From contig NZ_CP088081.1 in NCBI RefSeq assembly GCF_021049305.1, positions 3,771,119 to 3,835,118 of the forward strand: 64,000 nt of DNA, in the 5' to 3' direction. Position numbers and translations under genes: made by a program. Of the stretch, positions 48,580 to 64,000 are shown piece after piece. The stretch is from Ideonella dechloratans. GTDB taxonomy: Bacteria > Pseudomonadota > Gammaproteobacteria > Burkholderiales > Burkholderiaceae_C. The notes beneath the pieces are model-generated. The model was given only the letters and a program-made list of their open reading frames with translations. It did no database searches and had not been told where the DNA came from. Within the stretch, counting starts at the first letter, position 1; each line of letters opens with the position of its first letter.

Positions 48580-48613
48580 TGCGGACCTCGGGGCGTGCTC
48601 CCGGGGCGGGTGA

Positions 48614-49870
48614 TCAGCCTGCCAGGGTGGGCCGCGGAACGGCCAACCAGCCCCGACGCACCCCAGCCAGGGCCAGCAGCGCCAGCAGACCGTTCAGGGC
48701 CAGCGCCTCGCGCACGCCCCAGGCGCTGACCGTGAGGCCGGTGAGCAGGCCGCCCAGCGCCGTGCCGCCGCGCATGGCCAGCATGAACAGGCTGACCGTC
48801 TGGCCCCGGATGGCGGCCGGCGCCTGGGACTGCAGCCAGGCATTGGCCGAGGCATTGGCCATCGTCATCGCCAGCCCGCCAGCCACGAACAGCAGCGGCA
48901 GCGCCCAGGCCCAGGGGTTCAGGGCGGACAGCAACACCACCGCAGCGAAGCCGCTGGCGGCCCAGGAGGCCAGGGGCCGGCGGTCGCGCGCCGGGTCCAC
49001 CGCCATCAGCAGCAGGCCGCCCAGCAGCCCCCCCGCGCCGAAGGCGCTGACCGTCAGGCTGAACTGCGCCACGTCTGCCTGGAACACCGTCTTGACCAGC
49101 ACCGGGCAGAAGGTCAGCAACGGGCTGCACAGCAGGCTGCCGCCCAGCACCGTCAACACCGCGCCACGCAGCGCCGGCTGGGCCAGCACCGCGCGCGCAC
49201 CGGCCAGCGGCGGGCCATCCCTGCCACCCTCGGCCGGCGCCACCGCCTGCACCGTCGCCCGCGGCAGGATCCACAGCGCCACTGCGATGAAGGGCAGGTA
49301 GGACGCGGCGCTGACCGCAAAGGCCCCCACCGCACCGATGCTGGCCATCAGCACCCCGGCCAGCGAGGGCCCCAGGATGCGCGAGAGGTTGAACTGCGTG
49401 GTGTTGAGCGCGATGCCGGTGGGCAGCTGCCGGCGGTCCACCAGGGTCGAGACGATGGTCTGGAAGGAGGGCATGGACAGCGCATCCGTCACGCCCACCA
49501 CCAGAGAGAGCGCCACGATGATCCAGGGCTGGATGGACCCGTGCAGCAGCAGCCCCACGATCAGCAGCGGGCACAGCATCTGGATGGACTGCAGCGTGGC
49601 GATCAGCCGCCGGCGGTCGGCCCGGTCGGCCAGCACGCCGCCCAGCAGGGTCAGCAGCAGGCCCGGCCCGCCCAGGGCGAAGGTATCCAGCCCCAGCAGC
49701 CAGGGCGAGGCACCCAGCGACAGCATCAGCCAGGGCTGCGCCACCTGCTGGGCCCAGGTGCCGATGTTGGACAGCAGGCTGGCCAGCCAGAAGGTGCCGA
49801 AGCGCCGCGTCAGCAGCAGCTGCAGCGAGGCGTGGAAGGTGCGCGGGAAAGACCCCGACCTCAGGCTCAT
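48614..49870 (-). CDS. MFS transporter (EntS-like exporter family)
   Basis: A 418-residue transporter from the ATG at 49870, with about 12 helices. The start FGTFWLASLLSNIGTWAQQVAQPWLML and the loop-2/3 motif LADRADRRRLI are those of the MFS_3/EntS-type export group. Substrates in the group include siderophores and drugs; none can be chosen here. The frame remains open upstream but is antisense or non-family, so it was trimmed. Confidence 0.88.
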   Translation of the reverse strand: MSLRSGSFPRTFHASLQLLLTRRFGTFWLASLLSNIGTWAQQVAQPWLMLSLGASPWLLGLDTFALGGPGLLLTLLGGVLADRADRRRLIATLQSIQMLCPLLIVGLLLHGSIQPWIIVALSLVVGVTDALSMPSFQTIVSTLVDRRQLPTGIALNTTQFNLSRILGPSLAGVLMASIGAVGAFAVSAASYLPFIAVALWILPRATVQAVAPAEGGRDGPPLAGARAVLAQPALRGAVLTVLGGSLLCSPLLTFCPVLVKTVFQADVAQFSLTVSAFGAGGLLGGLLLMAVDPARDRRPLASWAASGFAAVVLLSALNPWAWALPLLFVAGGLAMTMANASANAWLQSQAPAAIRGQTVSLFMLAMRGGTALGGLLTGLTVSAWGVREALALNGLLALLALAGVRRGWLAVPRPTLAG

Positions 49871-49938
49871 GTCGACACCGCGTCCATCGCAAGCATGCGA
49901 CCGATTGTGCGTGCGATGCGGCCGCGGCGGCGGCGGCG

Positions 49939-50919
49939 TCAGGCTGCGGTCCGATCCACCGGGGGACGAAGCGACGGTGCGAGATGCGGCCGGAGCCGCG
50001 GCGCCAGATTGGCCAGCCATTCGTTGCGGCGCCGGTACATGCTGCGCTTCTTGGCCGGCACCTCGGACAGCTGCCGCTGCTCGCTGTCGTCCAGCGGCAG
50101 CACCCAGTGGCCGTCCCCGTTCAAGGTGCCACCCAACTCGCCCCAGAAGGTCCGATAGTCGAAGTGGTAGCCCTGGCGCAGCTTGTGGCGCCGCAAGCGC
50201 GCCTTGACCCGCAGGTCCACGCCCAGCAGCTGCTGGCCGCCGCATCGGGCCAGGGCCTTCAGCACGGCCAGCACCAGGTGCGGCGGCCGCAGGCCATGAA
50301 AGGCGTGGGTCGCGCGCCGGATCTCCCCCAGTGCCAGAGCATCCGACATCTTGGGGCCCTGCACGCAGCCCACCAGCAGACGGTCGCCCGGCAGAAAGCT
50401 CAGGCTCGCCGTGGACAGGCGCACGCCCTCGGCACCGCGCAGCGTCACCGACCACAAGCCCTCTTCCATGCTGTACTCGTTGACCCCCAGATCGATCTGG
50501 AAGCCATCCTGGGCGAGCAGGACCACGCGCCGCCCCTGCCGGAGCTCTTCCTGGGCGGTGACGCTCAGCAGCCGGTCTGCCGTCTGCACGCTGAGGGCAT
50601 ACACCTCGAAGCGCTCCGCCAGGCTGAGGCGACGGTCCGCCAGTTCCCGGACCAAGGGGGTGAAGGCCTCGGTTCCGCGCAGGAGGACCGCCTCCAGCAG
50701 CGGGCTCTCGCGCAGCTGCCCCGTCAAGCCGGACCACAGGCGGCGGGCCCGGACATGGTTGACCGCCATGGTGAGACTGCGCCCCAGATTGAGGGGGCTG
50801 GTGCGCATGTGCCGCAACAGCGCCGACAGGGATGGCCAGGCCAGCGCACCGCCCGACGCGAGCGCAGCAGCCCCCGCGCGCGAATCCGCCGCAGGGGCCA
50901 TGGAAATCACATTCGTCAT
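49939..50919 (-). CDS. VirK/YbjX-family protein (DUF535)
   Basis: A 326-residue protein of the VirK/YbjX family, recognised by the middle LADRRLSLAERFEVYALS, a GPKMSDALALGEIRRATHAFHG block and the end VPAKKRSMYRRRNEWLANL. No signal peptide. Enterobacterial members affect resistance to antimicrobial peptides and virulence, but the molecular role is unknown. It lies between the MFS gene and mnmE, all leftward; a GC-rich 7-bp stem at 51001-51017 lies upstream. Confidence 0.8.
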   Translation of the reverse strand: MTNVISMAPAADSRAGAAALASGGALAWPSLSALLRHMRTSPLNLGRSLTMAVNHVRARRLWSGLTGQLRESPLLEAVLLRGTEAFTPLVRELADRRLSLAERFEVYALSVQTADRLLSVTAQEELRQGRRVVLLAQDGFQIDLGVNEYSMEEGLWSVTLRGAEGVRLSTASLSFLPGDRLLVGCVQGPKMSDALALGEIRRATHAFHGLRPPHLVLAVLKALARCGGQQLLGVDLRVKARLRRHKLRQGYHFDYRTFWGELGGTLNGDGHWVLPLDDSEQRQLSEVPAKKRSMYRRRNEWLANLAPRLRPHLAPSLRPPVDRTAA

Positions 50920-51111
50920 CGTGTCCCGCAAGCAGGTGCCGGGACGCGCCGGGCACCCTTGCTCACCCTTGGGGGTATTGCCAGAGGGACACTCTAGGCG
51001 CCGGACCGCGGGTCCGGAGAGGCCGTCAGTCGGAGGACGGTCTGCCGACAGCCACCCGCCAGACAAGGCCCCCCACCGTGGCGAAGACGCCGCGGCGTCG
51101 GCCCTGCGGCC

Positions 51112-52515
51112 TCACTTGCCGATGCAAAAGCGGCTGAAGATTTCGCCCAGCAGGTCGTCGGCGCTGAAGCGGCCGGTGATCTGCTGCAGGGCCTCGTGGG
51201 CCAGGCGCAACTCCTCGGCCAGCAGGTCCAGCGCGGCGTCGGCCTGGTCGGCGTGCTCGGCCGCCAGGGCCAGGTGCTCGGCCGCCTCGCGCAGGGCCTG
51301 CACATGGCGGGTGCGGGCGATGTAGACGCCCTCGGGCGCGGCCTGCCAGCCGGCACGTTCCAGCAGCAGGCGGCGCAGGGCCTCCAGCCCCTGTCCCGTG
51401 CGGGCCGAGATGACCAGCGCGGCCTCGCCCTCCGGATGGGTGGCCAGCGCCTCGGTGCCGCTGTCGGCCTTGTTGAAGACCTGGATCCGCCGGGCCGGAT
51501 CCACCGCCTGCAGTTTCTGCGCGATCACCGCGTCGGCGGCCTGGTACGCCGGGTCTTGCAGCCGGGTCAGGTCGTGCAGGAAGAGCACCGCGTCCGCGCT
51601 GGCGATGGATTCCCAGCTACGCGCCATGCCGATGCGTTCCACCTCGTCGCTGGCGGCCGCGTCGTCGCGCAGGCCGGCGGTGTCGGTGATGTGGATGGGC
51701 ACGCCCTCGATCTGGATCGTCTCGCTGACCCGGTCGCGCGTGGTGCCCGCAATGGGGGTGACGATGGCCAGCTCGGCGCCGGCCAGGGCGTTGAGCAGCG
51801 AGCTCTTGCCCACATTGGGCTGGCCGGCCAGCACGACCCGCAGGCCCTCGCGCAGCAGCGCGCCCTGGCGGGCCCGGCCCAGCACCGCGTCCACCGCGGC
51901 CTGAATGGCGCGCAGCTTGCCGCGCGCGTCGGCCTTCTCCAGAAAGTCGATCTCCTCCTCGGGAAAGTCCAGCGTGGCCTCCACCAGCATGCGCAGCGTG
52001 ACGATGCGCTCGGCCAGGCCCTCGATCTCCTGCGAGAAGGCACCGGCCAGCGAGCGGGTGGCGCTGCGCGCTGCCGCCTCGGTGCTGGCGTCGATCAGGT
52101 CGGCCACCGCCTCGGCCTGGGCCAGGTCCAGCTTGTCGTTCAGAAAGGCGCGCTGGGTGAACTCGCCGGGCTCGGCCAGTCGCAGCGGCCAGCCCAGCGC
52201 GGCACCGGCACCCAGACAGCGGGCCAGCAGCAGCTGCAGCACCACCGGGCCGCCGTGGGCCTGCAGCTCCAGCACGTCCTCGCCGGTGTAGCTGTGCGGG
52301 GCCGGAAAGTAGAGCGCCAGGCCATGGTCGATCAGGGCGCCATCGGCCTCGCGGAAGGGACCGTACAGCGCGTGGCGCGGCGCCGGCACCTGGCCCAGCA
52401 GGGCCTGGGCCAGGGGTTTCAGGTCCGGCCCGGAGACGCGAACGATGCCCACCGCCCCGCGCCCGGGGGCGGTGGCGATGGCGACGATGGGGTCATGCAG
52501 GCGGGCCAAGGTCAT
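51112..52515 (-). CDS. mnmE: tRNA uridine-5-carboxymethylaminomethyl GTPase MnmE
   Basis: A 467-residue MnmE: an N-terminal formyl-THF-binding domain ([21 protein letters not shown]), a helical domain, an inserted G domain with P-loop [21 protein letters not shown] and DTAGLRD, and the C-terminal FCIGK end with its essential Cys. With MnmG it modifies U34 of tRNAs. In most Burkholderiales it follows yidC directly; here about 8.4 kb separate them. Confidence 0.97.
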
Positions 52516-52541
52516 GGCGACATTGTCTGACAGGCACAACG

Positions 52542-52550
52542 CCCCCCCCC
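52542..52550. repeat. Nine-C homopolymer before the TonB receptor operon
   Basis: A run of nine C (then GGG) in the 58-bp gap between the divergent mnmE and TonB-receptor genes, 24 bp before the receptor start. Such tracts can change length by slippage and alter expression, but no variation data are visible. Confidence 0.6.
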
Positions 52551-52573
52551 GGGAGAAGGCCCTCGCCTGAGGC

Positions 52574-54838
52574 ATGATCCCGGCGCTTGTTGCAGTTGCT
52601 TGCTCTATGTTGTTCTGCGTGAAGGGGGCCTCCCCCGCCCCCGGGTGCCCGCGGCGCCGTCGGTCCCCCCTGTCCGAAGTCGGCCTGCCGGCGCTGGCCC
52701 TGAGCGCCGCCGCCCTGGCCCCGGTGCCCGCGGCGCACGCCGCCGACACGGCCAACGACACACCCGCCCGGCTCACCATCGTCGGCACGGCCACACCGCC
52801 GGCAGCCAGCGATGGCCAGGTCCAGGTCATCGACCACGAGGCGCTGACCCGCTACGGCGACAGCAGCCTGAGCGATGCGCTGCGCCGCGTGCCCGGCGTG
52901 AGCGTGGACATGGACGGCCGCATCCAGCTGCGCGGCCTGGGCCGGGGCTACACCCAGGTGCTGCTGGACGGACGCCCGGTGGGCACCCAGGGCCAGGGCG
53001 TGGACCTCGGTGACCTCGACCTGTCGGCCATCGAGCGGGTGGAGATCGTGCGCGGCGCCACCGCCGCCGATGGCGGCGAGGGCATCGCCGGCACCATCCG
53101 CCTCTACACCCGCCGGGCGGGCGGCGCGGCGCGGCGCAGCCTGGTGGTGGAGGCCCAGGCCCGGCACCAGCGGCTGAACCCTGCCGTCGGCGTGGACCTG
53201 GCCGGGGCGCTCGGCCCCCAGCTGGACTGGCAAGCCGCGGCCCGCTGGCAGCGCGGTGCCAGTGCCGAATCCAGCCGGGTGCATTCGCAGTGGATCAGCG
53301 ACTACGGCGACGTGGTCTACACCGACCAGAGCCTGATCAGCCACCGCAGCGTCAGCCACCCCCGCCTGAACGCCAGCGGCGAACTGGCCTGGCAGGACGG
53401 GGCCGACCGGCTGGCCCTGGGGGCCATGGCCGTGGACGGCCCCACCCACAGCACCCAGCGCAGCGCGCTGCGCAACTGGAACTTCGACGGGGTCAACGCC
53501 AGCGTGTCCGAGGGCACGCAGACGATCCGCGACGACGAGCCCGAGGCCTGGCACCTGGAGCCGCACGCCCGGTGGCGACACGGCCTGGCCGAGGGTGGCG
53601 CGCTGCAGGCACAGTGGTCCTGGAGCAAGGACGTGAGCCACAGCCGCTGGCAGCTGCTGGCCCAGGACGCCCAAGGCCAGGTCACCGACGAGGAGGGCGA
53701 GGACGACCGCTCGGTGACCTACGCCCAGCAGACCCAGCTGCGCTGGGACCAGCCGCTGGGCGCAGGCTGGCGCACGACGCTGGGCGCGCAGTGGGTGCTG
53801 GACCGGCTCAGCGACCTGAGCCTGTCGGACGGTGAAGCCGACCGCAGCCAGCTGCGCCGCCCCACCCAGGCCCTGTTCGCCCAGGCCCACTGGCAGCCCG
53901 ACGCCGCCTGGCAGCTGGAGGCCGGCTGGCGCCAGGAGCACAGCCAGCTGGACCTGGACGGGCAGACCCAGCGACGCTTCGACCTCGGCCTGCCCTCGCT
54001 GGCCCTGCTGTGGACCCCGACGGCCGACCTGCAGTGGCACGCAGGTCTCTCGCGCAGCTACCGCCAGCCACGCCTGCGCGACCTCTCGCCCAACGGCCGC
54101 AGCACCGGCGACTACAACCAGCCCTGGTACCCCGATGTGCGCGGCAACCCCGCGCTGCGCAACGAGGTGGCCACGGGGCTGGAGCTCGGTCTGACCCGGC
54201 GCCTGGGGCCGGCCGAGTGGTCACTCAACCTGTACGCCCGCCGCCTCGACGACCCCATCGTCTTCCAGGTGGCCCAGAACGGCGACGGTCGCTGGGTGCT
54301 CTCGCCCGGCAACCTGGGCCGAGCCGGCCTGCGCGGCGTGGAGGTGCGCGGGCAGATCGACCTGGCCGCGCTGCCCGCCGACAGCCCCTGGCAGCTGCTG
54401 GCCACCCTGCGCGCCGACCTGAGCTTCAACCAGTCCCACGTGGACGGCCAGGCGGCACCCTCGCGCCTGCCCGGCCAGGCCCCGCTGCTGATCAACATCG
54501 GCTGGGATGCCCGGCCCGCCGGCTCGCTGGGCTGGGGCGCCACCCTGCACTACGAAGCCGGCTACGCCAGCCGCGCGCTGCCCACCACCAGCTTCAACCC
54601 CAGCTCCGGCACCGCCAACGACCCGAACACCCGGGTGGACCAGGCCGCCCAATGCACGCTGGATGTCTATGCCTTGTGGGCCCTGGCGCCGCAGAGCCGC
54701 CTGCGCCTGCGCGCCAACCAGCTGGGGGCCGACTGGCGCGCCGTGTCCCGCCAGCGCCAGCAGCAGGGTGAGTGGCGCACGCGCTTCGAGGGCAGCCGCC
54801 CCTGGGCGGTGGCGCTGAGCCTGGAACAGGACTGGTGA
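52574..54838 (+). CDS. TonB-dependent outer-membrane receptor
   Basis: A 754-residue receptor. The start is uncertain (ATG 52574 or 52607, or GTG 52619); all give an Arg-rich start and signal cleaved near AAHA. A TonB-box-like LTIVGTA follows at about residue 67. The plug (about 75-180: [37 protein letters not shown]) has no N-terminal STN signalling domain. The barrel ends in Trp. Substrates of this group include siderophores, vitamins and glycans. It lies 4 bp before the CHAT-protein gene and must be co-transcribed with it. Confidence 0.9.
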
Positions 54839-54842
54839 GGCG

Positions 54843-57380
54843 ATGAGCGGGCCGCTGCGGTGGCTGCGCGCCGGCCTGCTGGCCGCGCTCACGCTGCTGC
54901 CGCCCGCCCTGGCCCTGGCCGCGCGGCCCGGCCCCGCTTCTGACTCGACCTCGGCGCTGGCGCAGGCCGACGCCCTCGTCGTGCAGGCCAGCGCGGCCTA
55001 CGACGACCCGGCCCGGGCGCCCCAGGCCCGCGCCGCCCTGCGGCAGGCGCAGCAGATCCTGGCCCGCGCCCGGCTGACCGCCGAAGACCATGACCTGGCC
55101 CTGGCCCGCATCGGCTACGCCCTGAGCTGGGTGGAGGTCGGGGCGCACCGGCCGACCCAGGCCCGCGCGGCCGCCCAGCAGGCCCTGCAGCGGGCCCGGC
55201 GCTGGCGCCCCCCGGGCGCCGCCGAGGTGCTGTGGCCGCGCCAGGCCCTGTTCGCCCAGGCCGTCAACGCCCAGCACTGGGCGCAGGCCCGGCAGGCCCT
55301 GCGCCCGCTGCTGCCCTACCTGGACTTCGACGGTCACCGCTGCGGCGACGAGCTGTGCGCCGTCGTGCTGACCCACCGCTCCATGCTGCACGCGGCCCTG
55401 GGCGAGACGGCGCTGGCCTACAGCACCCGGCTGGCCAGCCACCGCTTTCTGGAACAGGCCGGCCTGCGCCCGCCCCTGCAACTGGCCTGGGACGAGCTGT
55501 CGCTGGCCCACCTGGCCCATGCTCAGGGCGAGACCGCCCTGGCCCTGCAGTGGCTGGACGCGGTGACCCAGCGGGCCCGGCAGGCCGGCCTGCCCGACGA
55601 TGCGCCCATGGTGCTGCAGGCCCGGGTGCTGCGCCCGCAATGGGCGGACGAACTGGCCCCGCAAGGGCCCGCCACCTGGCAGGCCGCACGGGCCCAGGCC
55701 CTGCGGGACGATGCCGCCGCCGTGGCCGCCCGCGGCTGGCTGGACGAAGACCGCGAAGCCCTGCTGTCGGCCTGTGCAAGGGCCAGCGCGCGGCTGGACG
55801 AGCCGGGCCCCGGTCTGCACTGCGCCGCCGAAGCCCTGGCGGTGGCCTGGAGCCAGCCGGGCGACACCCCGCGGCTGGGCGAGGTCTATGCCCTGCTGGA
55901 GCTGGGCCAGCTGACCCGGCAGGCCGGGGCCCCGGCCACCGCCACCCTGCTGGGCAAGTGGGCCCTCAATGCACTGCAGCGCCAGCGCGCCCGGCTGCGC
56001 GCCCTGCCGTCCGAGCAGCAGGCCCGCTACCTGCACCTGTGGCAGGACAGCTACCAGCAGCTGGCCGACGGCCTGCTGGACCAGCACCGCCTGAGCGAGG
56101 CCGAGCAGGTGCTGGCCCTGGCGCGCGACGCCGAGTACCACGAGCTCGTGCGCGGCGCGACGGACGCCGGCGAGCTGGCCCTCGGCCCCGGGGAGCGACA
56201 GGCCCTGCAGGCCCTGCAGGACTGGCGCGCCCGGCTGCACGGGGCCGCCAGGTCCGGGGTCGCCCTGCGCGGCCCGGGCCGCCCCGCCGTGCTGCGCCAG
56301 ACCCTGGACGCCCTGGCCGCCTGGCTGCAGACCGCGGCCCCCGCCGTGGCCACGCCACCGGCCGCGGCACCGGCCGACGCAGACACGGCGGCCACGACGC
56401 CCCACCTGCTCTACCTGCCCGGCCCGGCGCACCTGCGCATCGCGGTGCAGGTGGACGGTCGGACCACCGTGCGCGAGGTGGACATCGGCGAGCGCGCCCT
56501 GCTGGACGAGGTGGCCGCCCTGCGCCAGGCGGTGCAGGACCCCGGCCGCGACCCCCGGCCGCTGGCCCAGGCGCTCTACGCCCGGCTGTGGGCGCCGGTG
56601 GCGGACCTGCTGCCGCCGGACGCGCCGCTGCAGATCCAGGCCGAGGGCGTGTTGCGCTACCTGCCCTTCGGCCTGCTGCACGACGGCGGGGGCTGGCTGC
56701 TGGAGCGCCACACCCTGGCGATGGACGCGGGGCCGCCGCCCGCGCGGGCGCAGCAGGACGCCGGGACGCCGGTGCGCGCGCACCGGGGCTGGGCCCTGCT
56801 GGGCAGTGCCCGCGCCGCCGGCCTGCCCGCGCTGCCCCAGGTGCCCGCCGAGCTGCGGACCCTGGCCGCCCTGGCGCCGGCGGAACCCGCGCCCGAGCTG
56901 CGGCTGGACGGCGCCTTCACCCGCGCCACGCTGCGCCAGGCCCTGGCCCAGCGCCGCGTGGTGCACATCGCCAGCCACTTCCGGCTGGTGCCGGGCGATG
57001 CCCAGGCCTCTTGGCTGCAACTGGGCGGCGGACAGCGGGTGTCGCTGGCCGAGCTGGCCCGGCCCGGTTTCGATTTCCGCGGCGTGGACCTGCTGACCCT
57101 GTCGGCCTGCGAAACCGCGGTGCCGGCCGGTGTGGACGCCCGCGGCTCACCACTGGAAAGCCTGGCCCATGTGGCGCTGCTGCGCGGGGCGCGGCAGGTG
57201 CTGGCCAGCCTGTGGACGGTGCCGGACGAGGACACGGCGCAGCTCATGGCGGATGTGTACCGTGCCTATGCGGCCGGCCAGCCCGCCCCCGAGGCGCTGC
57301 GGCAGGCCCAGATCGCCCGGATGCGGGTGTCGCCCCACCCCTCGGCCTGGGGCGGCTTCATCGTGCTGGACCGGCCCTGA
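54843..57380 (+). CDS. Exported TPR-CHAT protease-domain protein
   Basis: An 845-residue protein with a signal peptide (cleavage near ALAA, about residue 27). Residues about 35-450 are Ala/Leu/Gln-rich helices of tetratricopeptide character. The C-terminal about 300 residues form a CHAT domain, the caspase-like peptidase fold: the His of VVHIASHF (about 712) and the Cys of LSACETA (about 756) make the dyad, and GARQVLASLWTVPDEDT is the family signature. CHAT proteins cleave protein partners in toxin and gasdermin-like systems, but usually in the cytoplasm; this one looks periplasmic or surface-bound. Its stop abuts the stop of the convergent caspase gene. Confidence 0.92.
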   Translation: MSGPLRWLRAGLLAALTLLPPALALAARPGPASDSTSALAQADALVVQASAAYDDPARAPQARAALRQAQQILARARLTAEDHDLALARIGYALSWVEVGAHRPTQARAAAQQALQRARRWRPPGAAEVLWPRQALFAQAVNAQHWAQARQALRPLLPYLDFDGHRCGDELCAVVLTHRSMLHAALGETALAYSTRLASHRFLEQAGLRPPLQLAWDELSLAHLAHAQGETALALQWLDAVTQRARQAGLPDDAPMVLQARVLRPQWADELAPQGPATWQAARAQALRDDAAAVAARGWLDEDREALLSACARASARLDEPGPGLHCAAEALAVAWSQPGDTPRLGEVYALLELGQLTRQAGAPATATLLGKWALNALQRQRARLRALPSEQQARYLHLWQDSYQQLADGLLDQHRLSEAEQVLALARDAEYHELVRGATDAGELALGPGERQALQALQDWRARLHGAARSGVALRGPGRPAVLRQTLDALAAWLQTAAPAVATPPAAAPADADTAATTPHLLYLPGPAHLRIAVQVDGRTTVREVDIGERALLDEVAALRQAVQDPGRDPRPLAQALYARLWAPVADLLPPDAPLQIQAEGVLRYLPFGLLHDGGGWLLERHTLAMDAGPPPARAQQDAGTPVRAHRGWALLGSARAAGLPALPQVPAELRTLAALAPAEPAPELRLDGAFTRATLRQALAQRRVVHIASHFRLVPGDAQASWLQLGGGQRVSLAELARPGFDFRGVDLLTLSACETAVPAGVDARGSPLESLAHVALLRGARQVLASLWTVPDEDTAQLMADVYRAYAAGQPAPEALRQAQIARMRVSPHPSAWGGFIVLDRP

Positions 57381-58382
57381 TCAGCCCGGTGACGGGGCCA
57401 GCCACAGCGGACGGCCCAGCGCCCCGCTGAACTGGGGCACCGGCCAGGCCGAGCGCGGCAGCTTCAGGCTGGCGGCCAGCTGGGCATGGCGGGCCTGGGT
57501 GGCCCGCACCAGCGCGGCATGGTCCCAGCCGGCGCGGGTCTGGGCCAGCGCGTCGCACAGGGCCGCACTGAACAGGCCGCGCACCAGCCCCTGCGGGCTG
57601 CGCCATTCGGGGGTGCGCTGCAGGCTACCGCAGGCCAGCAGGGCCACGCAGTCGGTGTCGCGCAACGGCGGCCCGGAGGCCGGCGCGGCGGGCAGCGGCG
57701 CGCTGGCGTGCGACGCCAGGTCTTCGGTGCGCAGGCCGCGCCAGCGCAGGCCCAGTGCGGGGTCGCTCGCCGACCGGGTGCTGCCACCGGCATAGCAGGT
57801 GTCGAAGACCACGCAGACCTGGGCACCCCGGGCCAGCCAGGCGTCGATGCGCTCCCCCACCTCGGCGCTGGCCAGCGCGCCCGCCAGCGGCCAGGGGCTG
57901 CCGGCGGGCGCGCGGGCCGCGTCCCGGGCCAGCAGCCAGGTGCTCAGGCCGTCCGGGCCCACCGGCGCCGCGGGCGCGACCGGCGCACTGCGCACCCCGT
58001 GACCGGACCAGTACAGCAGCACCTCGTCGCCGGCCACCAGCTCGGTCGTCAGCGCGTCCAGGGCCTGCAGCAGCGCGGCGCGGGTGGGCGGCGCGGCCTG
58101 TGCCCGGGGCCCCAGGCCGTCGGCCAGCACCCGGGTGCGTGCCGGCGCCACCCCCAGGCCGGGCAGCAGGCTACGCAGGGCCTGCACATCGTGCGCCGGC
58201 CCCTGCAGCCACAGGTCCGGGGGCTGGAACTGGAGGGCCGACACACCCACCAGCACCGCGTGGCGGGTGCCGCGGGACGGGGGTAAGGGCCGGGAGGACT
58301 GCGCCCGGACCGACAGCGGGGCAGTGCCCACGGCCACAGCGGCCTGCAGCCAGCGGCGACGGCGCGGGTCGGGGACGCGCAT
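57381..58382 (-). CDS. Exported caspase-family (peptidase C14) protein
   Basis: 333 residues from the ATG at 58382, preceded by GAGGGGG; a TTG at 58400 overlapping the upstream stop is another option. The N-terminus RRRRWLQAAVAVG resembles a Tat signal, cleaved near VRAQ. The caspase fold has His of LLYWSGHGV (about 128) and Cys of VVFDTCYAGG (about 196), both intact. It probably cleaves after Arg, Lys or Asp; specificity cannot be read. It is the last gene of the ECF sigma/anti-sigma operon. Tat export of a caspase homologue is unusual. Confidence 0.9.
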   Translation of the reverse strand: MRVPDPRRRRWLQAAVAVGTAPLSVRAQSSRPLPPSRGTRHAVLVGVSALQFQPPDLWLQGPAHDVQALRSLLPGLGVAPARTRVLADGLGPRAQAAPPTRAALLQALDALTTELVAGDEVLLYWSGHGVRSAPVAPAAPVGPDGLSTWLLARDAARAPAGSPWPLAGALASAEVGERIDAWLARGAQVCVVFDTCYAGGSTRSASDPALGLRWRGLRTEDLASHASAPLPAAPASGPPLRDTDCVALLACGSLQRTPEWRSPQGLVRGLFSAALCDALAQTRAGWDHAALVRATQARHAQLAASLKLPRSAWPVPQFSGALGRPLWLAPSPG

Positions 58383-58396
58383 CCGGTCCGGCCCCC

Positions 58397-59095
58397 TCAA
58401 GGCTGCGACTCGGGCCGCGGCGCGGACAGCAGGCTCGCCCGCTGCACCGCGGACAGGCTGCGCGCCGCAGCCAGGGTGGCGGCGGCCTCGTCGGCCGGCA
58501 GGCTGAGCACCCAGCGCCCGTCGATGCCCAGGCTGAGCTGACGCGGGCCGCCGGCCTGCGGCACCAGCAGCGGCGCCAGGGACTGCACACGGGCATCCGG
58601 CGCCAGTTGCAGCAGCAGCTGGGCACGGGGGGCGGCCTGCAGGGTGGCGGGGCGCAGACTGCGCCAGACCGGTTCCTCCTCGGCGGCGCGCTGGGCGTGC
58701 AGCAGCCAGCCGATGGCGCCGGCCTGCGCCACGATGACCAGGGTGGCCAGGGCCAGGGCCGGGCGCGCACCCAGGGATGCCTGGAGGCAGGCCCGCAGGG
58801 TGCTCCAGACCGAGGCCCGCGCAGATGCCTCATCCGGTGGCGCCAGCGGCCTGGCGGCCGGCTGCAACTGCTGCTGCAGGCGCTGCCAGGCCGGGCCGGT
58901 GTCCTCGCGGGCGGCCGCGTCGTGCAGGGCGCTGCGCAGCTGCTCCAGCGTGCGGGCCTCGGCGTCCAGCGCGGGGTGCTGTTGCCGCTGCCGCTGCATC
59001 CAGGCCTGTTCCGGCGCCGCCAGCTGGCCGGCCAGGAAGGCGGGCAGGGCGTCCTGGAAGCGGCGCTCGTCCTCGGGGCTCAAGGTCGGGGTCAT
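58397..59095 (-). CDS. Putative membrane anti-sigma factor
   Basis: A 232-residue bitopic protein whose ATG overlaps the sigma-factor stop (ATGA). The cytoplasmic N-terminus (1-110) begins with a short helical segment LPAFLAGQL that resembles the sigma-binding start of anti-sigma factors, but lacks the HxxxCxxC zinc site. A single transmembrane helix is at about 112-134. The periplasmic part (135-232) has a beta-rich QLLLQLAPDARVQSLAPLLVP and IDGRWVLSLP. Position and topology, not homology, support the call. It could sense a periplasmic signal or be cleaved. Confidence 0.75.
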   Translation of the reverse strand: MTPTLSPEDERRFQDALPAFLAGQLAAPEQAWMQRQRQQHPALDAEARTLEQLRSALHDAAAREDTGPAWQRLQQQLQPAARPLAPPDEASARASVWSTLRACLQASLGARPALALATLVIVAQAGAIGWLLHAQRAAEEEPVWRSLRPATLQAAPRAQLLLQLAPDARVQSLAPLLVPQAGGPRQLSLGIDGRWVLSLPADEAAATLAAARSLSAVQRASLLSAPRPESQP

Positions 59096-59700
59096 GGCGT
59101 GGCGCCCTCCTCGCGGCCCAGCCACTGCTGCAGGCAGTCGCGCAGGTGGCGCCGGCCGTGGAACAGGCGGGTCTTGACGGTGTTTTCGGGGGTGTTCTGC
59201 AGGCGGGCGATGTCGGCCAGGGGCATGTCCTCCAGGGCCCAGAGCATCAGGGCCTCGCGCTGCAGCGCGTTGCCCAGGCGGCGCAGGCAGTCCAGCACGC
59301 CGTGGCGGCGCTGCTGGCGGGCCAGGCCCTCGGGGGGCGTGGGCGCGTCGTCCGGCAGGGCCTGCCAGGCGGCCTCGCTCAGCTCGGTCTGCAGGGTGGC
59401 GCCCAGGCGGCGCTGGCGCAGCCGGTCCACCGCCTTGTTGCGCGCCAGGGTCAGCAGCCAGGTGCCAAAGGCCACGCGACCGTCGAAGCGGTCCGGGTGG
59501 CGCCAGAGATCCAGGAACACGTCGGCGGTGACCTCCTGGGCCAGGGCCTCGGCCTCGGCCCCGCAGGGGGCCAGCTGCAGCCGGGCGAAGACCTGGACCT
59601 TGCCCGCCCAGTCATGCCAGAGCATCTTCAGCGCCTGCTCGTCACCCGACTGCAGGGCAGCCAGCTGGAGCAGGGGGTTCATGGTGCGGTCGTCGCTCAT
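59092..59700 (-). CDS. ECF-type RNA polymerase sigma factor
   Basis: A 202-residue sigma-70 family factor of the ECF group. Region 2 (about residues 25-97: ALAQEVTADVFLDLWRHPDRF, FGTWLLTLARNKAVDRLRQRR) and region 4 (about 134-190: LQREALMLWALEDMPLADIARLQNTPENTVKTRLFHGRRHLR) are present; region 3 is missing. It is the first gene of a leftward, translationally coupled operon with the anti-sigma-like and caspase genes. The target promoters are not identified. Confidence 0.92.
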   Translation of the reverse strand: MSDDRTMNPLLQLAALQSGDEQALKMLWHDWAGKVQVFARLQLAPCGAEAEALAQEVTADVFLDLWRHPDRFDGRVAFGTWLLTLARNKAVDRLRQRRLGATLQTELSEAAWQALPDDAPTPPEGLARQQRRHGVLDCLRRLGNALQREALMLWALEDMPLADIARLQNTPENTVKTRLFHGRRHLRDCLQQWLGREEGATP

Positions 59701-59882
59701 GGGCGGTGATCGGGGAACTGCGGGGGCCACGGGCCCGGCCGTCGGTCGACGGGGCGCCCATCTTACAAAGCCCCGCCCCCGCCGCACTTTTTTGTTCGCG
59801 CGATGTGAACCTGGCGCACCGCCGCCACGAACAAGAGCTTGGGACTCTGTATTCAACCCCCTCTCTCTGGAAAGACAACGTG

Positions 59883-60701
59883 ATGACGAAGACTCTGAAG
59901 CCGCTGCTGGCGGCGATGGTGGCAGGCCTGGTGCTGGCGGGCTGCGGCGGCGGTGGTTCGGACAGCAGCAGCTCGGGTGGCAGCAATTCCGGTGGCAGCA
60001 GCTCGGGCGGGGGCAGCAGCTCCGGCGGCGGCACCGCCTCGGCCTGCTCGGGCAACATCTGGCAGACCGTGAACTACGACGTCTACGCCAGCGGCTCGGC
60101 CAGCCCGGTCAGCCAGGCGGCCAACTTCTACGGCGCCAGCAGCAGCGCCAGCACGCAGTGCGTGGACGTGGCCTCCACCCTGCAGCTGAGCACCACCGAC
60201 GGCTTCAACAACGTCAGCTGGGTGGACAGCGGCAGCACCGCCCTGGGGGCCAGCGCCGAGCGGCTCGACGCCGGCCTGCTGCTGACCTGCAGCAGCGGCG
60301 CCGACACCACCCGCCACCTGGCCGTGCGGGCCGATGGCAAGGTGGCGGCGGCCAGCGCCCATGCCATGGCCCAGGGCCAAGGCTTCGGCTCGCTGGAATG
60401 CAGCAGCAACGGCAGCGCCGTGGACGCCGGTGTGGCCTCGGGCGTCTTCAATGCCGATGGCACCTTGACGCTGACCGACGGCTCGGTGAATCCGCCCGAC
60501 ACCACGATCTGGTCGGCGGCCGAGGTGGATGCGGCCTTCAGCAGCGGCGGCTACACGGTCACCAGCAACGGCGTGAGCAAGACCTTCCGCCTGACGCTCT
60601 ACACGGTGCCGGCGGCGGGTGCAACCCGTCAGGCCATCGTGTTCTCGGCCACCAAGTCCGACGGCTCGGTGATCAACCCCTTCGTCTTCATCCAGCAATA
60701 A
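59883..60701 (+). CDS. Gly/Ser-rich secreted lipoprotein, hypothetical
   Basis: A 272-residue lipoprotein with lipobox VLAGC (Cys about residue 21), then a Gly/Ser-repeat linker of about 30 residues and a mature domain with three further Cys (ACSG, TQCVD, LTCSSG, LECSS) and a Thr/Ser/Asn-rich beta pattern. No known family was recognised. The stretch upstream (59701-59882) is the divergent control region with the sigma-factor gene. Likely anchored in the outer membrane and facing the periplasm or outside. Confidence 0.8.
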   Translation: MTKTLKPLLAAMVAGLVLAGCGGGGSDSSSSGGSNSGGSSSGGGSSSGGGTASACSGNIWQTVNYDVYASGSASPVSQAANFYGASSSASTQCVDVASTLQLSTTDGFNNVSWVDSGSTALGASAERLDAGLLLTCSSGADTTRHLAVRADGKVAAASAHAMAQGQGFGSLECSSNGSAVDAGVASGVFNADGTLTLTDGSVNPPDTTIWSAAEVDAAFSSGGYTVTSNGVSKTFRLTLYTVPAAGATRQAIVFSATKSDGSVINPFVFIQQ

Positions 60702-60849
60702 GAAGGGCTGGCGCGGGGGGCGGGCCGGCGCTGGCCGTCATCGGCCGGCGTCTGACCCTGCTCGCGAACGGCGCGTTCAAGGCGTGCCGTTCATCCCCGC
60801 ATCCTCACTATCGGGGCGGCGGACACGCTGGCGATCCGTAGAAACGACA

Positions 60850-60886
60850 ACGCACCGGGGCCGCGAAGCCGCCGGTGCGTCTTTTG
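60850..60886. terminator. Hairpin terminator between lipoprotein and yidC
   Basis: ACGCACCGG and CCGGTGCGT arms with a 13-bp GC-rich loop, then TCTTTTG. It lies between convergent genes and could end either; the T-run favours the rightward one. The rest of the 210-bp gap shows no gene. Confidence 0.75.
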
Positions 60887-60911
60887 TCACGAAACGTGAC
60901 TCAGGCGGCCG

Positions 60912-62570
60912 TCAGAGCACGCCCATGCGCTTGTTGATGACGTACTGCTGGGCAATGGACAGCAGGTTGTTCGTCAGCCAGTACAGCACCAGGCCGGACG
61001 GGAAGAAGAAGAACATGAAGCTGAAGGCCAGCGGCATGATCCACATCATCTTCTGCTGCATGGGGTCGGCCTGCTTGGGCGAGAGCCAGACCTGCAGCAG
61101 GCTGGACAGCGTCATCAGCACCGGCAGGATGAAGAACGGATCCTTGGCCGACAGGTCGGTGATCCAGCCGATCCAGGGCGCGCCGCGCATCTCGACAGTG
61201 GACATCAGCACCCAGTACAGCGCCATGAAGAAGGGCATCTGCACGAAGATGGGCAGGCAGCCGCCCAGCGGGTTGACCTTCTCCTCGCGGTAGATGCGCA
61301 TCATCTCCTGCTGCATCTCCTGCGGCTTGTCCTTCAGGCGCTCGCGCAGTTCCATGATGCGCGGGTTGACCGCCTTCATCTTGGCCATCGACTTGTAGGC
61401 GTTGGCGTTGAGCCAGTAGAAGGCCGCCTTGAGCAGCACCACCAGCAGGATGATGGACCAGCCCCAGTTGCCGATGAGCTTGTGGATGTGGTCCAGCACC
61501 CAGAACAGGGGCTCGGCCAGCACCTTGAACCAGCCGTAGTCCTTCACCAGTTCCAGGCCCGGGGCCAGGGTGGCGAGCTTCTTCTCCTCCTGCGGGCCGA
61601 CGAACAGGGTGGCGTCGCTGGTTTCGGTGGCGCCCGGTGCCACGGCGGGCAGGGGCTGCACCAGGGCCACGGTGAAGAGGTCCGGACCGATCTTGGTGGT
61701 GCGGAACTCGCGCGGCGAGCCGTCCTTCACCAGCCAGGCGGTGGCGAAGTAGTGCTGGACCATGGCGATCCAGCCGTCGTTGGCCTTCTGCACATGCAGC
61801 GGCGAGTCACCCGGCTGGTGCTTGGCGATGTCCTCGAACTTGACCTTCTGGTAGCGCTTCTCGTCGGTGTAGACGGCCGGGCCGGTGAAGGTGCTGTAGA
61901 AGGACGTGTGGGCGCCGGGCGCCTTGTCGTCACGTTGCAGCTGCAGGTAGAGCTGAGGCTGCAGCGGGGCACTGCCGACGTTGGTGAGGGCGTGCTTCAC
62001 ATCCACGGTGTACTGGCCGCGGTGGAAGGTGTAGGTCTTGACCAGCTTGGCGCCGCCCACCTCGGGCGACTCGAAGCGCACGGTCAGGGTGTCCTGGCCA
62101 TCCTTCAGATCGCGGTCGCCGGGCACGGCGCTCATCAGCGTCAGGTGGGTGGGCAACGGCGTGGCGCCCGCGCTGATGTAGCCGGTCTGGGCTTCGTAGC
62201 GGTGGCCCGTCTCGTCCAGCACCAGCATGGGCTGCCCGGGATCGGTGTCGCTGTGGTACTTGTTCAGTGCCACGCGACGCAGTGTGCCGCCCAGGGTGTC
62301 GAAGGTGGCCGTCATCACGTCGGTGTGGACGGTGAAGGTCTCGCTGCGGACGGGTGCGGGCGCGGAGGCGCCGGCCACCACCGGGGTGGCGCCATTGGCC
62401 GCGGCCGAGGCCGGCGTGGGCACGCCGTTGCCGGAAGCCGCTGCCGATGCCGCGGGCACCGGGCCGCCGAACAGGGTCGGCTGGCCGTTGTGGCGGCTCC
62501 ACGCGTCCCACAGCAGGACGAGCGACATGGTGAACACCACCCACAGCAGGGTGCGGCGCATATCGGTCAT
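60912..62570 (-). CDS. yidC: Membrane protein insertase YidC
   Basis: A 552-residue YidC: an N-terminal helix (TLLWVVFTMSLVLLWDAW), a large periplasmic P1 domain (about residues 75-340) and the conserved five-helix insertase core with MKAVNPRIMELRERLKDKPQEMQQEM and GGCLPIFVQMPFFMALYWVL. It inserts proteins into the inner membrane alone or with SecYEG. The start overlaps the yidD stop. Confidence 0.97.
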   Translation of the reverse strand: MTDMRRTLLWVVFTMSLVLLWDAWSRHNGQPTLFGGPVPAASAAASGNGVPTPASAAANGATPVVAGASAPAPVRSETFTVHTDVMTATFDTLGGTLRRVALNKYHSDTDPGQPMLVLDETGHRYEAQTGYISAGATPLPTHLTLMSAVPGDRDLKDGQDTLTVRFESPEVGGAKLVKTYTFHRGQYTVDVKHALTNVGSAPLQPQLYLQLQRDDKAPGAHTSFYSTFTGPAVYTDEKRYQKVKFEDIAKHQPGDSPLHVQKANDGWIAMVQHYFATAWLVKDGSPREFRTTKIGPDLFTVALVQPLPAVAPGATETSDATLFVGPQEEKKLATLAPGLELVKDYGWFKVLAEPLFWVLDHIHKLIGNWGWSIILLVVLLKAAFYWLNANAYKSMAKMKAVNPRIMELRERLKDKPQEMQQEMMRIYREEKVNPLGGCLPIFVQMPFFMALYWVLMSTVEMRGAPWIGWITDLSAKDPFFILPVLMTLSSLLQVWLSPKQADPMQQKMMWIMPLAFSFMFFFFPSGLVLYWLTNNLLSIAQQYVINKRMGVL

Positions 62571-62956
62571 GAGGATGGCCTGGAAGAAGTCAGGGGAACA
62601 AGGGTGGCCGGCTCGGCTGACGCGGTCGTGTCAGACGGGGGGACGGCCACGGGAGAGGCCACTGGCACGGTGGCGCCAGGCAGCAGATGCCGGAACAGGC
62701 GAGGCCGCTCGGCAGGCACCGGATCGCAGCCGCCGGCGCACCAGGGCGCGCAGCGCGCGATGCGCACCACGGCCAGGTAGCTGCCCGCCGCGGCGCCATG
62801 GCGCTCCAGCGCCTCCAGCGCATAGCGCGAGCAGGTGGGCTCGAAGCGGCATTGGTTGCCCAGCCAGGGGCTCAGCAGCAGACGATAGCCGCGCACGCCG
62901 GCCTGCAGCAGCCGCCGAGGCAGCAGACGCAGAGTGGGGAGCGGGCGGATCGGCAT
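62567..62956 (-). CDS. yidD: Membrane protein insertion efficiency factor YidD
   Basis: A 129-residue protein: an amphipathic start (RRLLQAGVRGYRLLLSPWLG) and the Cys-rich core NQCRFEPTCSRYALEALERHG and RIARCAPWCAGG that define YidD. The Pro/Thr/Ser-rich tail of about 45 residues is longer than usual. It helps insertion by YidC and lies between rnpA and yidC as usual. Confidence 0.92.
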   Translation of the reverse strand: MPIRPLPTLRLLPRRLLQAGVRGYRLLLSPWLGNQCRFEPTCSRYALEALERHGAAAGSYLAVVRIARCAPWCAGGCDPVPAERPRLFRHLLPGATVPVASPVAVPPSDTTASAEPATLVPLTSSRPSS

Positions 62957-62969
62957 CGCGAAACGTGCC

Positions 62970-63515
62970 TCAGGCCTTGGAGCGGGCACGCGGGCGCAGG
63001 CGCCCACCGCCATCGGCCGGCAAGGGCTGGCGGATGGCGCGGTCGAACAGCGTGTCCATCTCGGCATGGGCCGCTTCGCGCAGGGTCTCCGAGGCCGGGC
63101 TGAGGAACTGGGCCCGGTCGAAGGGCGCGCGCAGACGCACCACCCACAGGCCGGCAGGCAGCGTGGCCAGGTGGCGTGCCATGGCCGCGCGGGCCTGGCG
63201 CTTGATCAGGTTGCGGGTGACGGCGCGCTTGGCATGCCGCTTGGGCACGACCAGCCCCAGCCAGTGGCCGGAAGGACCGGACGGGCCGGATGCACCGGAT
63301 TCATCCACAAGCGCCCCAAGAGAGGGCGCAGAGGCTGTGGATAACTCTGGTGACAACACCGGGATAAGCGGTGCATCACCCGTGGACAGCCCCGACGGAC
63401 GTGAAGCCTGCGGCTCGCCACTCACATGGTGAATGGCGAAATGGGCACTGCGGGAACGCTGCGGAGCCGACAGCACGCGCTCGAAATCGGCCGGACGCAC
63501 GATGCGGCCGATCAT
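62970..63515 (-). CDS. rnpA: Ribonuclease P protein component (with long insertion)
   Basis: A 181-residue RnpA. The basic signature KRHAKRAVTRNLIKRQAR (about residues 93-110) is complete. It is about 60 residues longer than E. coli RnpA because of a Ser/Pro/Gly-rich insert at about residues 32-83, between the first strand and the core. The insert DNA contains DnaA boxes on both strands. The protein helps the RNase P RNA mature tRNA 5' ends. It starts 10 bp after rpmH. Confidence 0.93.
   Translation of the reverse strand: MIGRIVRPADFERVLSAPQRSRSAHFAIHHVSGEPQASRPSGLSTGDAPLIPVLSPELSTASAPSLGALVDESGASGPSGPSGHWLGLVVPKRHAKRAVTRNLIKRQARAAMARHLATLPAGLWVVRLRAPFDRAQFLSPASETLREAAHAEMDTLFDRAIRQPLPADGGGRLRPRARSKA
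63301..63344. promoter_or_regulatory. DnaA boxes inside rnpA
   Basis: TGTGGATAA (63336-63344) is a perfect DnaA box (TTATCCACA on the other strand). TCATCCACA (63301-63309) has one mismatch and faces it. Both lie in the insertion-encoding part of rnpA, about 650 bp from the window end and close to the predicted origin. Confidence 0.6.
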
Positions 63516-63525
63516 GGCGCCGGGA

Positions 63526-63663
63526 TCAGACCCGCGACAGCTGCTTGCGGCCCTTGGCGCGACGCGCGTTGATGACGGCGCGGCCACCACGGGTCTTCAT
63601 GCGAACGAGGAAACCGTGCGTGCGGGCGCGGCGGACCTTGGAAGGCTGATAGGTGCGCTTCAT
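63526..63663 (-). CDS. rpmH: 50S ribosomal protein L34
   Basis: A 45-residue ribosomal protein: [20 protein letters not shown] then a basic tail ending KGRKQLSRV. It is among the most conserved short proteins and marks the rpmH-rnpA end of the origin region. It has a promoter about 190 bp upstream and is first in the rpmH-rnpA-yidD-yidC run. Confidence 0.98.
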
Positions 63664-63848
63664 GTTGTGTACCTACTGGGTAGTGGCACCCTGAAAGAGT
63701 GCATGTGCTGCAAGGGAGCTCTGGTGAGCCTGGGGTTGCCCAGGCACGGCACCAGCGCATGTCAAAGGCCCCTGGCCCTGCCGCAGACGGCAAGAGCTCC
63801 AGGAAGTTCGACAGGCGAAAGCCCACCCAGGCGTTCGGGAAACCCACG

Positions 63849-63877
63849 ATTAGACCAAGAAACGCCAATCTGGTCAA
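63849..63877 (-). promoter_or_regulatory. Sigma-70 promoter for the rpmH operon
   Basis: On the minus strand TTGACC (63872-63877), a 17-bp spacer and TCTAAT (63849-63854), each five of six to consensus. Transcription would begin near 63842, giving a leader of about 180 bases before rpmH. Confidence 0.75.
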
Positions 63878-63912
63878 ACACTTGCACCACAACATGCGGC
63901 GCCGCGGGGGGA

Positions 63913-63941
63913 TTGACCCCGTGCAGGAAACTGTGGATAAC
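63913..63941 (+). promoter_or_regulatory. dnaA: Candidate dnaA promoter overlapped by a DnaA box
   Basis: TTGACC (63913-63918), 17-bp spacer, GATAAC (63936-63941), reading toward the window end. A perfect DnaA box TGTGGATAA (63932-63940) covers the -10, which fits DnaA autorepression. The dnaA coding sequence itself is outside the window. Confidence 0.55.
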
Positions 63942-64000
63942 CTCGCCCCAGGCGGCCCGAGGAGTGCGTAGAATGCGGCCGCTCAAGAAGAATTGTCCAC

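Follow-up and report, generated by a model that had tools for sequence, protein, structure and literature searches.

The six-gene cassette and its insertion site

A 64,000-nucleotide stretch of the Ideonella dechloratans genome (NZ_CP088081.1, positions 3,771,119 to 3,835,118; hereafter the window) contains, between mnmE and yidC, a block of six genes that we propose may act together as a sense-and-respond circuit of the cell envelope built around two apparently exported proteases of the caspase clan. The genes encode a TonB-dependent receptor, a CHAT-domain protease, a C14 caspase homologue, an anti-sigma factor, an extracytoplasmic function (ECF) sigma factor and a lipoprotein (Table 1), and open reading frames together with Pfam searches confirmed the content, coordinates, strands and layout that had been given in an initial annotation of the sequence. 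The receptor and CHAT genes both run rightward and are separated by 4 bp. The sigma and anti-sigma genes run leftward and overlap by 4 bp, with the caspase gene downstream of them. The stop codons of the CHAT and caspase genes (57380 and 57381) touch in the window, and in the six other loci that carry the block, described below, the distance between these two genes is 18-211 bp, except where they overlap (L145). The likely start codons of the caspase, sigma and lipoprotein genes are the ATGs at 58382, 59700 and 59883, the longer open reading frames using earlier codons. There was no Rfam match in window positions 48000-64000, so an RNA element was dropped from consideration.

Table 1. Coordinates of the cassette and of its genes, sites and promoter in the window.
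Feature	Position	Strand	Description
Inserted cassette	52534..60708		8175 bp; limits from pairwise alignment with sister species L128 and L127
TonB-dependent receptor	52574 (or 52607)..54838	+	Pfam plug and barrel; no signalling domain found
CHAT-domain protease	54843..57380	+	Pfam CHAT, 152.5 bits (cut-off 24); Sec-like start, by eye
CHAT His712	56976-56978	+	Dyad residue, invariant in 7/7 loci
CHAT Cys756	57108-57110	+	Dyad residue, invariant in 7/7 loci
C14 caspase homologue	57381..58382	-	Pfam Peptidase_C14, 29.8 bits (cut-off 21.4); twin-arginine start, by eye
Caspase Cys196	57795-57797	-	Dyad residue, invariant in 7/7 loci
Caspase His128	57999-58001	-	Dyad residue, invariant in 7/7 loci
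Membrane-spanning anti-sigma factor	58397..59095	-	zf-HC2 below threshold (14.3 vs 22.2); transmembrane helix at about residues 114-132
Anti-sigma stalk Trp144-Arg145	58661..58666	-	Proposed protease site; invariant in 7/7 loci
ECF sigma factor	59092..59700	-	Pfam Sigma70_r2 and r4_2; 57-66% identity to six orthologues
ECF-type promoter TGAACC-N16-CGAACAA	59806..59834	+	Ahead of the lipoprotein gene
Lipoprotein	59883..60701	+	Lipobox, by eye; Gly/Ser linker; short-type globular domain

The limits of the cassette come from alignments of its flanks with sister species. With L128 the alignment ends at window position 52533 and restarts at 60709, leaving 13 bp between, and with L127 it ends at 52527 and restarts at 60701, leaving 9 bp; with L126 it ends earlier, at 52503, and restarts at 60709. 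The insert has a GC content of 0.757, the flanking window sequence one of 0.702, and the longest word common to both of its borders is 5 bp. By these alignments the six genes are a clean insert of ~8.2 kb in place of 9-13 bp of the mnmE-yidC spacer of the sister species, as the initial annotation had supposed in calling the locus accessory. In the sister species G008, G005 and G013, mnmE is 94-95% identical to that of the window and stands side by side with yidC.

Twelve mnmE-yidC junctions from the genus (L126-L137) were compared with genes called by a home-made caller, the junctions of G001, G009 and G011 being left out. The block is present in none of the 12. The two flanking genes are neighbours in seven junctions (L126, L127, L128, L132, L135, L136, and L137), are separated by a single other gene in two (L131 and L133), and in three (L129, L130, and L134) yidC lies outside the stretch covered. 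The junction is thus variable within the genus. A protein search of 15 sister species of the genus gave no caspase match better than E 4.2e-17 and no CHAT match better than 7.8e-17.

Conservation and distribution of the block

The same six genes in the same layout are present in seven of seven loci, that is, in the window and in six others that lie at several genome sites. These are Acidovorax sp. Leaf160 (L143, genome G238), the Comamonas metagenome-assembled genome Pcu381_bin24 (L144), Comamonas terrae (L145), Comamonas testosteroni NFYY023 (L146, genome G128), L191 (genome G453) and L211 (genome G808, from the genus of G128). The four Comamonas loci have one neighbour gene in common, on the lipoprotein side, and the window, L143 and L191 have others. 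Some blemishes should be noted. The receptor gene, which is at the same place in all seven loci, is interrupted in frame in L146 (= L106) and was called fused to an upstream frame in L145, the starts of the CHAT gene of L143 and of the caspase gene of L211 were not pinned down, the anti-sigma gene of L191 was called short, and the lipoprotein gene of L211, missed by the gene caller, was found from reading frames.

By the initial annotation's own standard its reading would fail if the genes did not occur together in other genomes, and the searches show that they do. Across 399 genomes of the family, the sigma alignment matched four at E 1.4e-84 or better, own genome included, with the next match at 4e-40 and 27 genomes at 1e-30 or better. 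The CHAT alignment likewise matched four at E 1.4e-196 or better, own genome included, followed by 1e-87 and with 28 genomes at 1e-25 or better; by their listed handles the top four are the same genomes in both searches. Order-wide, the caspase search with a limit of E 1e-12 found 9 of 399 genomes and the anti-sigma search with a limit of E 0.001 found 6 of 399, the own genome being counted in each, and the two led to G128 and G238, both of which have the six genes in this arrangement. When named genomes were scanned with the sigma alignment, seven loci were obtained, four of them real relatives and three of them distant sigma factors, and in the Comamonas genus (that of G128) the sigma factor is present at E 1e-50 or better in 4 of 53 genomes. 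As far as seen, the block appears to be rare, patchy and all-or-none.

The six proteins have diverged to different degrees. Among the seven loci, identity is 52-84% for the sigma factor, 41-70% for the caspase, 31-68% for the CHAT protein, 25-78% for the receptor, 21-58% for the anti-sigma factor and 16-69% for the lipoprotein, which by this measure is the most variable part of the cassette. Carriage by a phage or plasmid was considered and dropped, there being no viral relative of the sigma factor; the plasmid matches, in 52 records for the window caspase and 73 for the Acidovorax caspase, are all below 60% identity.

Two putative exported proteases

The His/Cys dyads of both proteases, which the initial annotation had read as intact, are kept throughout the seven loci, and protease activity is predicted for both enzymes. 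The export signals that it reported were also recognised, by eye in each case: the caspase, with a twin-arginine leader, and the CHAT protein, with a Sec-like leader, look exported, and the lipoproteins of all seven loci have a lipobox. Its description of a tetratricopeptide repeat (TPR)-CHAT protein held for the CHAT domain and failed for the repeats, none being found by Pfam in the window protein. The sole match of the CHAT alignment in the PDB was a designed pentatricopeptide (E 0.0017).

The C14 domain was found by Pfam in all four block loci scanned (window, L143, L145, and L191) and in seven of seven by homology, and in all seven the sigma factor and the C14 protein are encoded in one operon. 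By sequence, the caspase alignment matches metacaspases in the PDB (E 8.2e-11). The window caspase is without the C-terminal extension of ~150 residues that is present in the six orthologues and that gave a sub-threshold match to DUF4384 in L145 and none in L143. A D-x-C arrangement is found at the catalytic cysteine in seven of seven loci, and D-x-C at the C14 cysteine goes with basic specificity. Those C14 members that have been characterised, caspases apart, favour Arg or Lys at P1 (PMC5756287).

Receptor, sigma factor and anti-sigma factor

Only plug and barrel models were matched by the three receptors scanned (window, L143, and L144), the N-terminal signalling domain being absent from all three. 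By sequence, the receptor matches the colicin I, enterobactin, B12 and heme receptors of the PDB, in and near the plug, and because the matches are spread over these four no ligand can be named. In the anti-sigma factors of all seven loci a hydrophobic helix is followed by 87-113 residues, which fits a single-pass protein with a predicted extracytoplasmic domain. None of the three anti-sigma factors scanned (window, L143, and L145) has a FecR match, and zf-HC2 is the best that they show. With neither a signalling domain in the receptors scanned nor a FecR-type anti-sigma factor, the release of the sigma factor by a receptor-sensed signal, as the initial annotation had it, is not borne out in its classical form.

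A structure model of the anti-sigma factor, made with five sequences, has a mean predicted local distance difference test (pLDDT) score of 67. It consists of a helical N-terminal part, a low-confidence stretch at residues 106-153 that includes the transmembrane helix, and an outer domain at 157-223 modelled as beta-alpha-beta-beta-alpha-beta, with block means of pLDDT 83-95 over 161-220. The invariant Trp144-Arg145 pair lies within the low-confidence stretch, behind the membrane helix. The outer domain gave weak matches to a ferredoxin-like fold, with no PDB match under E 0.001; a likeness to a protease pro-domain is conceivable.

The lipoprotein and its promoter

The initial annotation treated the lipoprotein as a bystander, but it is before the lipoprotein gene that the conserved promoter was found. 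The sequence TGAACC-N16-CGAAYA stands ahead of the lipoprotein gene and points to it in seven of seven loci, with an identical spacing of 16 bases, and the site in Table 1 is the sole match in the window when up to one mismatch is allowed (0.03 expected). A weight matrix was built from six of the seven loci. It found no match near the training score in five receptor upstream stretches (window, L143, L144, L146, and L191), that of L146 lying mostly inside the interrupted gene and the receptors of L145 and L211 not being in this scoring, and none in six stretches before the sigma gene. Because the promoter precedes the lipoprotein gene in every locus and was not found before the receptor and sigma genes scanned, the lipoprotein is the likely output, and the sigma factor apparently controls neither the receptor nor the operon that encodes it. 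Control of the receptor and proteases by the sigma factor was dropped on the same grounds.

Genome-wide, exact matches to the promoter number 3 in G000, 1 in G128, 6 in G238, 1 in G433 and 3 in G434, against 0, 1, 0, 0, and 1, respectively, for a reversed-pattern control, and the lipoprotein site is the only exact match in G128 and G433. There are nine extra sites, of which five are inside called genes (L151, L153, L154, L158, and L160) and four are intergenic, one in the own genome (L156) and three in Acidovorax G238 (L157, L161, and L162). The motif is therefore not confined to the lipoprotein gene or to this sigma factor. The intergenic sites might mark a wider regulon or another sigma factor of like specificity, and L156, with its palindrome, could instead be an unrelated operator. 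A second exact promoter is found in L211 (858-1463), before the gene of a small exported protein that is cut off from the receptor gene by a transposase, which we take to be IS5-like; this protein has no relative in the other loci compared.

The lipoprotein itself has no Pfam match, and its structure model (mean pLDDT 33) is unusable. Two kinds can be told apart behind one leader and one promoter, a short kind (window, L143, L146, and L211) and a long kind (L144, L145, and L191). The two align in leader and linker alone, and between their globular parts no relation could be detected (hhalign probability 0.1, the scale being 0-100); the window lipoprotein is joined to the short group weakly, with a best E of 0.03. 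Parts of the cassette appear to have been exchanged, because L144 and L146 have receptors of 78% identity (over the open piece of L146) yet differ in lipoprotein kind. Such exchanged domains hint at a partner on the cell surface that changes. In L191 the promoter and the long-type lipoprotein gene are separated by a short lipoprotein-like frame (9382-9696).

Related operons and the anti-sigma stalk motif

Beyond the seven loci, operons of related composition were found in the family. The second-tier sigma loci number 16 (L192-L207), some on very short contigs and three without a sigma call. In six of them (L192, L193, L194, L196, L197, and L200) a sigma factor, an anti-sigma factor and a C14-type protein are encoded in a row, and Pfam found C14 in all four that were checked (L192, L193, L194, and L196). 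The same order is seen in short loci of four more genomes (L177, L178, L181, and L183). In 11 of 15 second-tier CHAT loci an ECF sigma gene is found at most four genes 5' of the CHAT gene (L246-L255 and L258); in L245 the sigma gene is four genes downstream and was not counted, and L244, L256 and L257 have no ECF sigma gene near CHAT. Many of the proteases of these operons begin, by eye, with an apparent signal peptide. ECF/anti-sigma operons with apparently exported C14 or CHAT proteins thus recur in this bacterial family, and the premise of the initial annotation that such proteins usually act inside the cell is an unsafe one here. The 11 CHAT loci make up a broad ECF sigma/CHAT operon family, in which an anti-sigma gene is mostly called between the two and some members have a C14 gene or genes for large exported proteins nearby.

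A hydrophobic-Arg-small motif like that of the window stalk was first seen in most of 18 further anti-sigma factors encoded beside C14 or CHAT genes. It was written as [WLIVMFY]R[GSAT] within 26 residues of the membrane helix and scored in all loci of at least 7 kb except two duplicates, which gave 47 scorable sigma/anti-sigma pairs; 19 of 40 control stretches yielded such a pair, and CHAT loci in which no anti-sigma gene was called, such as L249, L250 and L258, are absent from the scoring. The motif is present in 22 of 27 protease-linked and 1 of 20 unlinked anti-sigma factors (Fisher 1e-7, a value that overstates the case because the sigma tree gives just 2-3 independent contrasts). Shuffling of the linked stalks led to an expectation of 4.1 and a maximum of 9 in 1000 shuffles, and in the unlinked ones 1 was seen with 1.3 expected. 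In further short loci the motif is found in 5 of 5 linked anti-sigma factors, among which L175 repeats an earlier locus, and in 1 of 12 unlinked ones; the latter, L184, has the same genus code as the C14-linked L200 and a flank too short to tell whether it is linked.

Proposed mechanism

We put forward a hypothetical mechanism, to which we give about an even chance of being correct, in which the six genes form one portable envelope sense-and-respond circuit and a caspase-clan enzyme serves as the site-1 protease acting on the anti-sigma factor. The sigma factor, anti-sigma factor and caspase would be produced together, with the anti-sigma factor keeping the sigma factor at the inner membrane. 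Ligand binding by the receptor would then activate the periplasmic CHAT protein coupled to it as well as the caspase, and one of these two Arg-directed proteases would cut the periplasmic stalk of the anti-sigma factor after the invariant Trp-Arg. House proteases would then complete its breakdown and the freed sigma factor would turn on the lipoprotein gene from the TGAACC-N16-CGAAYA promoter, after which the lipoprotein would travel to the outer membrane and there meet the ligand or the receptor. From the sequences themselves come the conserved block, the coupling of its genes, the dyads, the export-type leaders, the promoter and the stalk motif, along with a lipoprotein that varies more than any other part. 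We infer how the receptor acts on the proteases, that the cut takes place and which protease makes it, that this sigma factor pairs with this promoter, and what the lipoprotein does.

A caspase-clan site-1 protease is the best reading because characterised C14 members other than caspases prefer Arg or Lys at P1, D-x-C is found in all seven loci, a TPR-CHAT protease provides a precedent and the stalk offers an Arg. The stalk motif makes a protease acting on the anti-sigma factor more likely, and it is the evidence on which we propose the site-1 cut by a periplasmic enzyme. That CHAT-linked and C14-linked anti-sigma factors share this motif suggests that either protease may serve. The interpretation offered in the initial annotation, of a receptor-sensed signal and a periplasmic protease cascade, is as a whole partly supported. 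We further suggest, tentatively and with rather poorer than even prospects, that exported caspases and CHAT proteins constitute a separate site-1 class for ECF anti-sigma factors, cutting after a hydrophobic-Arg pair of the periplasmic stalk, and that in the present case the two proteases are gated by a TonB receptor, drive a swappable surface lipoprotein and form a periplasmic pathway that leads to transcription, not death. The mechanism makes concrete predictions of the substrate (the anti-sigma factor), the cut (after the stalk Arg), the promoter and the product. If true, many Burkholderia-type ECF sigma factors would gain a trigger protease, and caspase-clan enzymes would serve as periplasmic signalling switches.

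Several points weigh against this reading. The motif was written down only once 25 rows had been inspected, and 24 of these belong to the 27 linked ones; three of the 27 rows were new to it (L115, L117, and L247) and two of these three fit. Five of the 27 linked rows are without the motif as written (L111, L113, L120, L247, and L255), one unlinked row has it (L260), and linkage itself was assigned with home-made profiles at E 1e-5, with a Pfam check in some loci only. In a tree of the 47 sigma factors the linked ones fall in two main groups with three label changes, and the 2-3 independent pairs show the motif going the same way or no difference (sign test p 0.5), so that two ECF groups may simply have inherited the stalk motif. 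No feature was found in the receptor that ties it to the anti-sigma factor, G238 holds five further exact promoter matches, three of them between genes, and other sigma factors may use such a promoter. Moreover, just one bacterial orthocaspase had been characterised by 2017 (PMC5756287).

The alternative that survives best, and that we regard as unlikely, is that the proteases do not regulate the sigma factor, which would answer some other envelope signal, and that the caspase and CHAT protein process exported cargo. The cargo might be the lipoprotein, the receptor or the incoming ligand, for example a protein that enters via the receptor and is trimmed or destroyed. This would suit the 4-bp spacing of the receptor and CHAT genes, the place of the lipoprotein and receptor among the most variable parts and the fact that the anti-sigma cut is predicted only, but it leaves unexplained both the invariant Arg of the anti-sigma stalk and the recurrence of C14 and CHAT genes beside ECF/anti-sigma pairs.

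It is improbable, in our estimation, that two unrelated units, receptor-CHAT on one side and sigma-anti-sigma-caspase-lipoprotein on the other, are merely carried along in one genomic cassette. In its favour, the two operons are convergent and no promoter motif is common to them, and sigma-caspase and sigma-CHAT operons stand alone elsewhere; however, the link between the two halves seems to be old, because both are present in all seven loci, at several genome sites, with CHAT proteins that are only 31-68% identical. We attach a similarly small probability to a conflict system in which a bacteriocin or phage uses the receptor as its port and is blocked or neutralised by the induced lipoprotein, a reading that is compatible with the proposed circuit. 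The patchy distribution in the Comamonas genus, the clean insertion and the two kinds of lipoprotein would agree with it, as would a match to the PADLOC caspase model (56.4 bits). This is the only PADLOC match among the six proteins, however; no other defence component and no described multi-gene anti-phage system was matched by them, no viral relative of the sigma factor was found, and the five lipoproteins scanned gave no PHROG of known function. Finally, classical TonB-linked cell-surface signalling of the FecA/FecR/FecI type with two extra proteases, suggested by the presence of a receptor, a membrane anti-sigma factor and an ECF sigma factor in one locus, is contradicted and very improbable, since the signalling domain and the FecR match are missing from every receptor and anti-sigma factor scanned and the promoter from the five receptor upstream stretches.

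Relation to known systems

The proposed circuit shares elements with several known ones. In regulation of the RseA/DegS type, a membrane anti-sigma factor with a periplasmic domain is cut by a periplasmic protease as the trigger; the same is proposed here, except that the enzyme acting as trigger would belong to the caspase clan and have its gene in the operon. The Csx29 system of type III-E CRISPR is cytoplasmic. In this RNA-triggered system the TPR-CHAT protease Csx29 cuts the sigma inhibitor Csx30, the sigma factor being CASP-sigma (PMC10028731). Both comprise a CHAT protease and an ECF sigma factor together with an inhibitor of the sigma factor that is a protease substrate, here a predicted one, whereas the proteases of the present block look exported and its inhibitor spans the membrane. 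A relative of type III-E was dropped as a candidate, the window CHAT protein scoring 20 bits against the Csx29 model with a cut-off of 300. The scan of the six genes showed no Cas7-11 effector, a result limited to these genes because no search for an effector or CRISPR array was made elsewhere in the genome. Cell-surface signalling of the Fox type likewise has a TonB receptor, a membrane anti-sigma factor, an ECF sigma factor and anti-sigma proteolysis (PMC11637429), the last of which is only proposed here. The block differs from it in the missing receptor signalling domain and FecR-type match, in a receptor gene that lies outside the promoter found and in its own pair of proteases.

The family operons with a C14 or CHAT gene have the same core of ECF sigma and anti-sigma factor and, in most, the same stalk motif, and in the loci examined there is no receptor-CHAT pair or related lipoprotein beside them. 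In the open-licence literature we found no description of this six-gene block or of an anti-sigma factor cut by a caspase. Operons of sigma-70 and metacaspase genes have been described in Myxococcus, Anaeromyxobacter, Haliangium, Sorangium, Ralstonia and Fibrobacter (Asplund-Samuelsson 2012, PMC3501461), and since such operons are already in print, the present block, where a sigma gene is likewise in one operon with that of a C14 caspase homologue, is a variant on a known theme. In the section of that paper on these operons there is no mention of a cut anti-sigma factor, of a CHAT protein as partner, of a TonB receptor or of a lipoprotein driven by the sigma factor. The same paper reports metacaspase genes of the Xanthomonas type beside trmE (mnmE) and yidC, the two genes that flank the window block, a coincidence that is worth a look.

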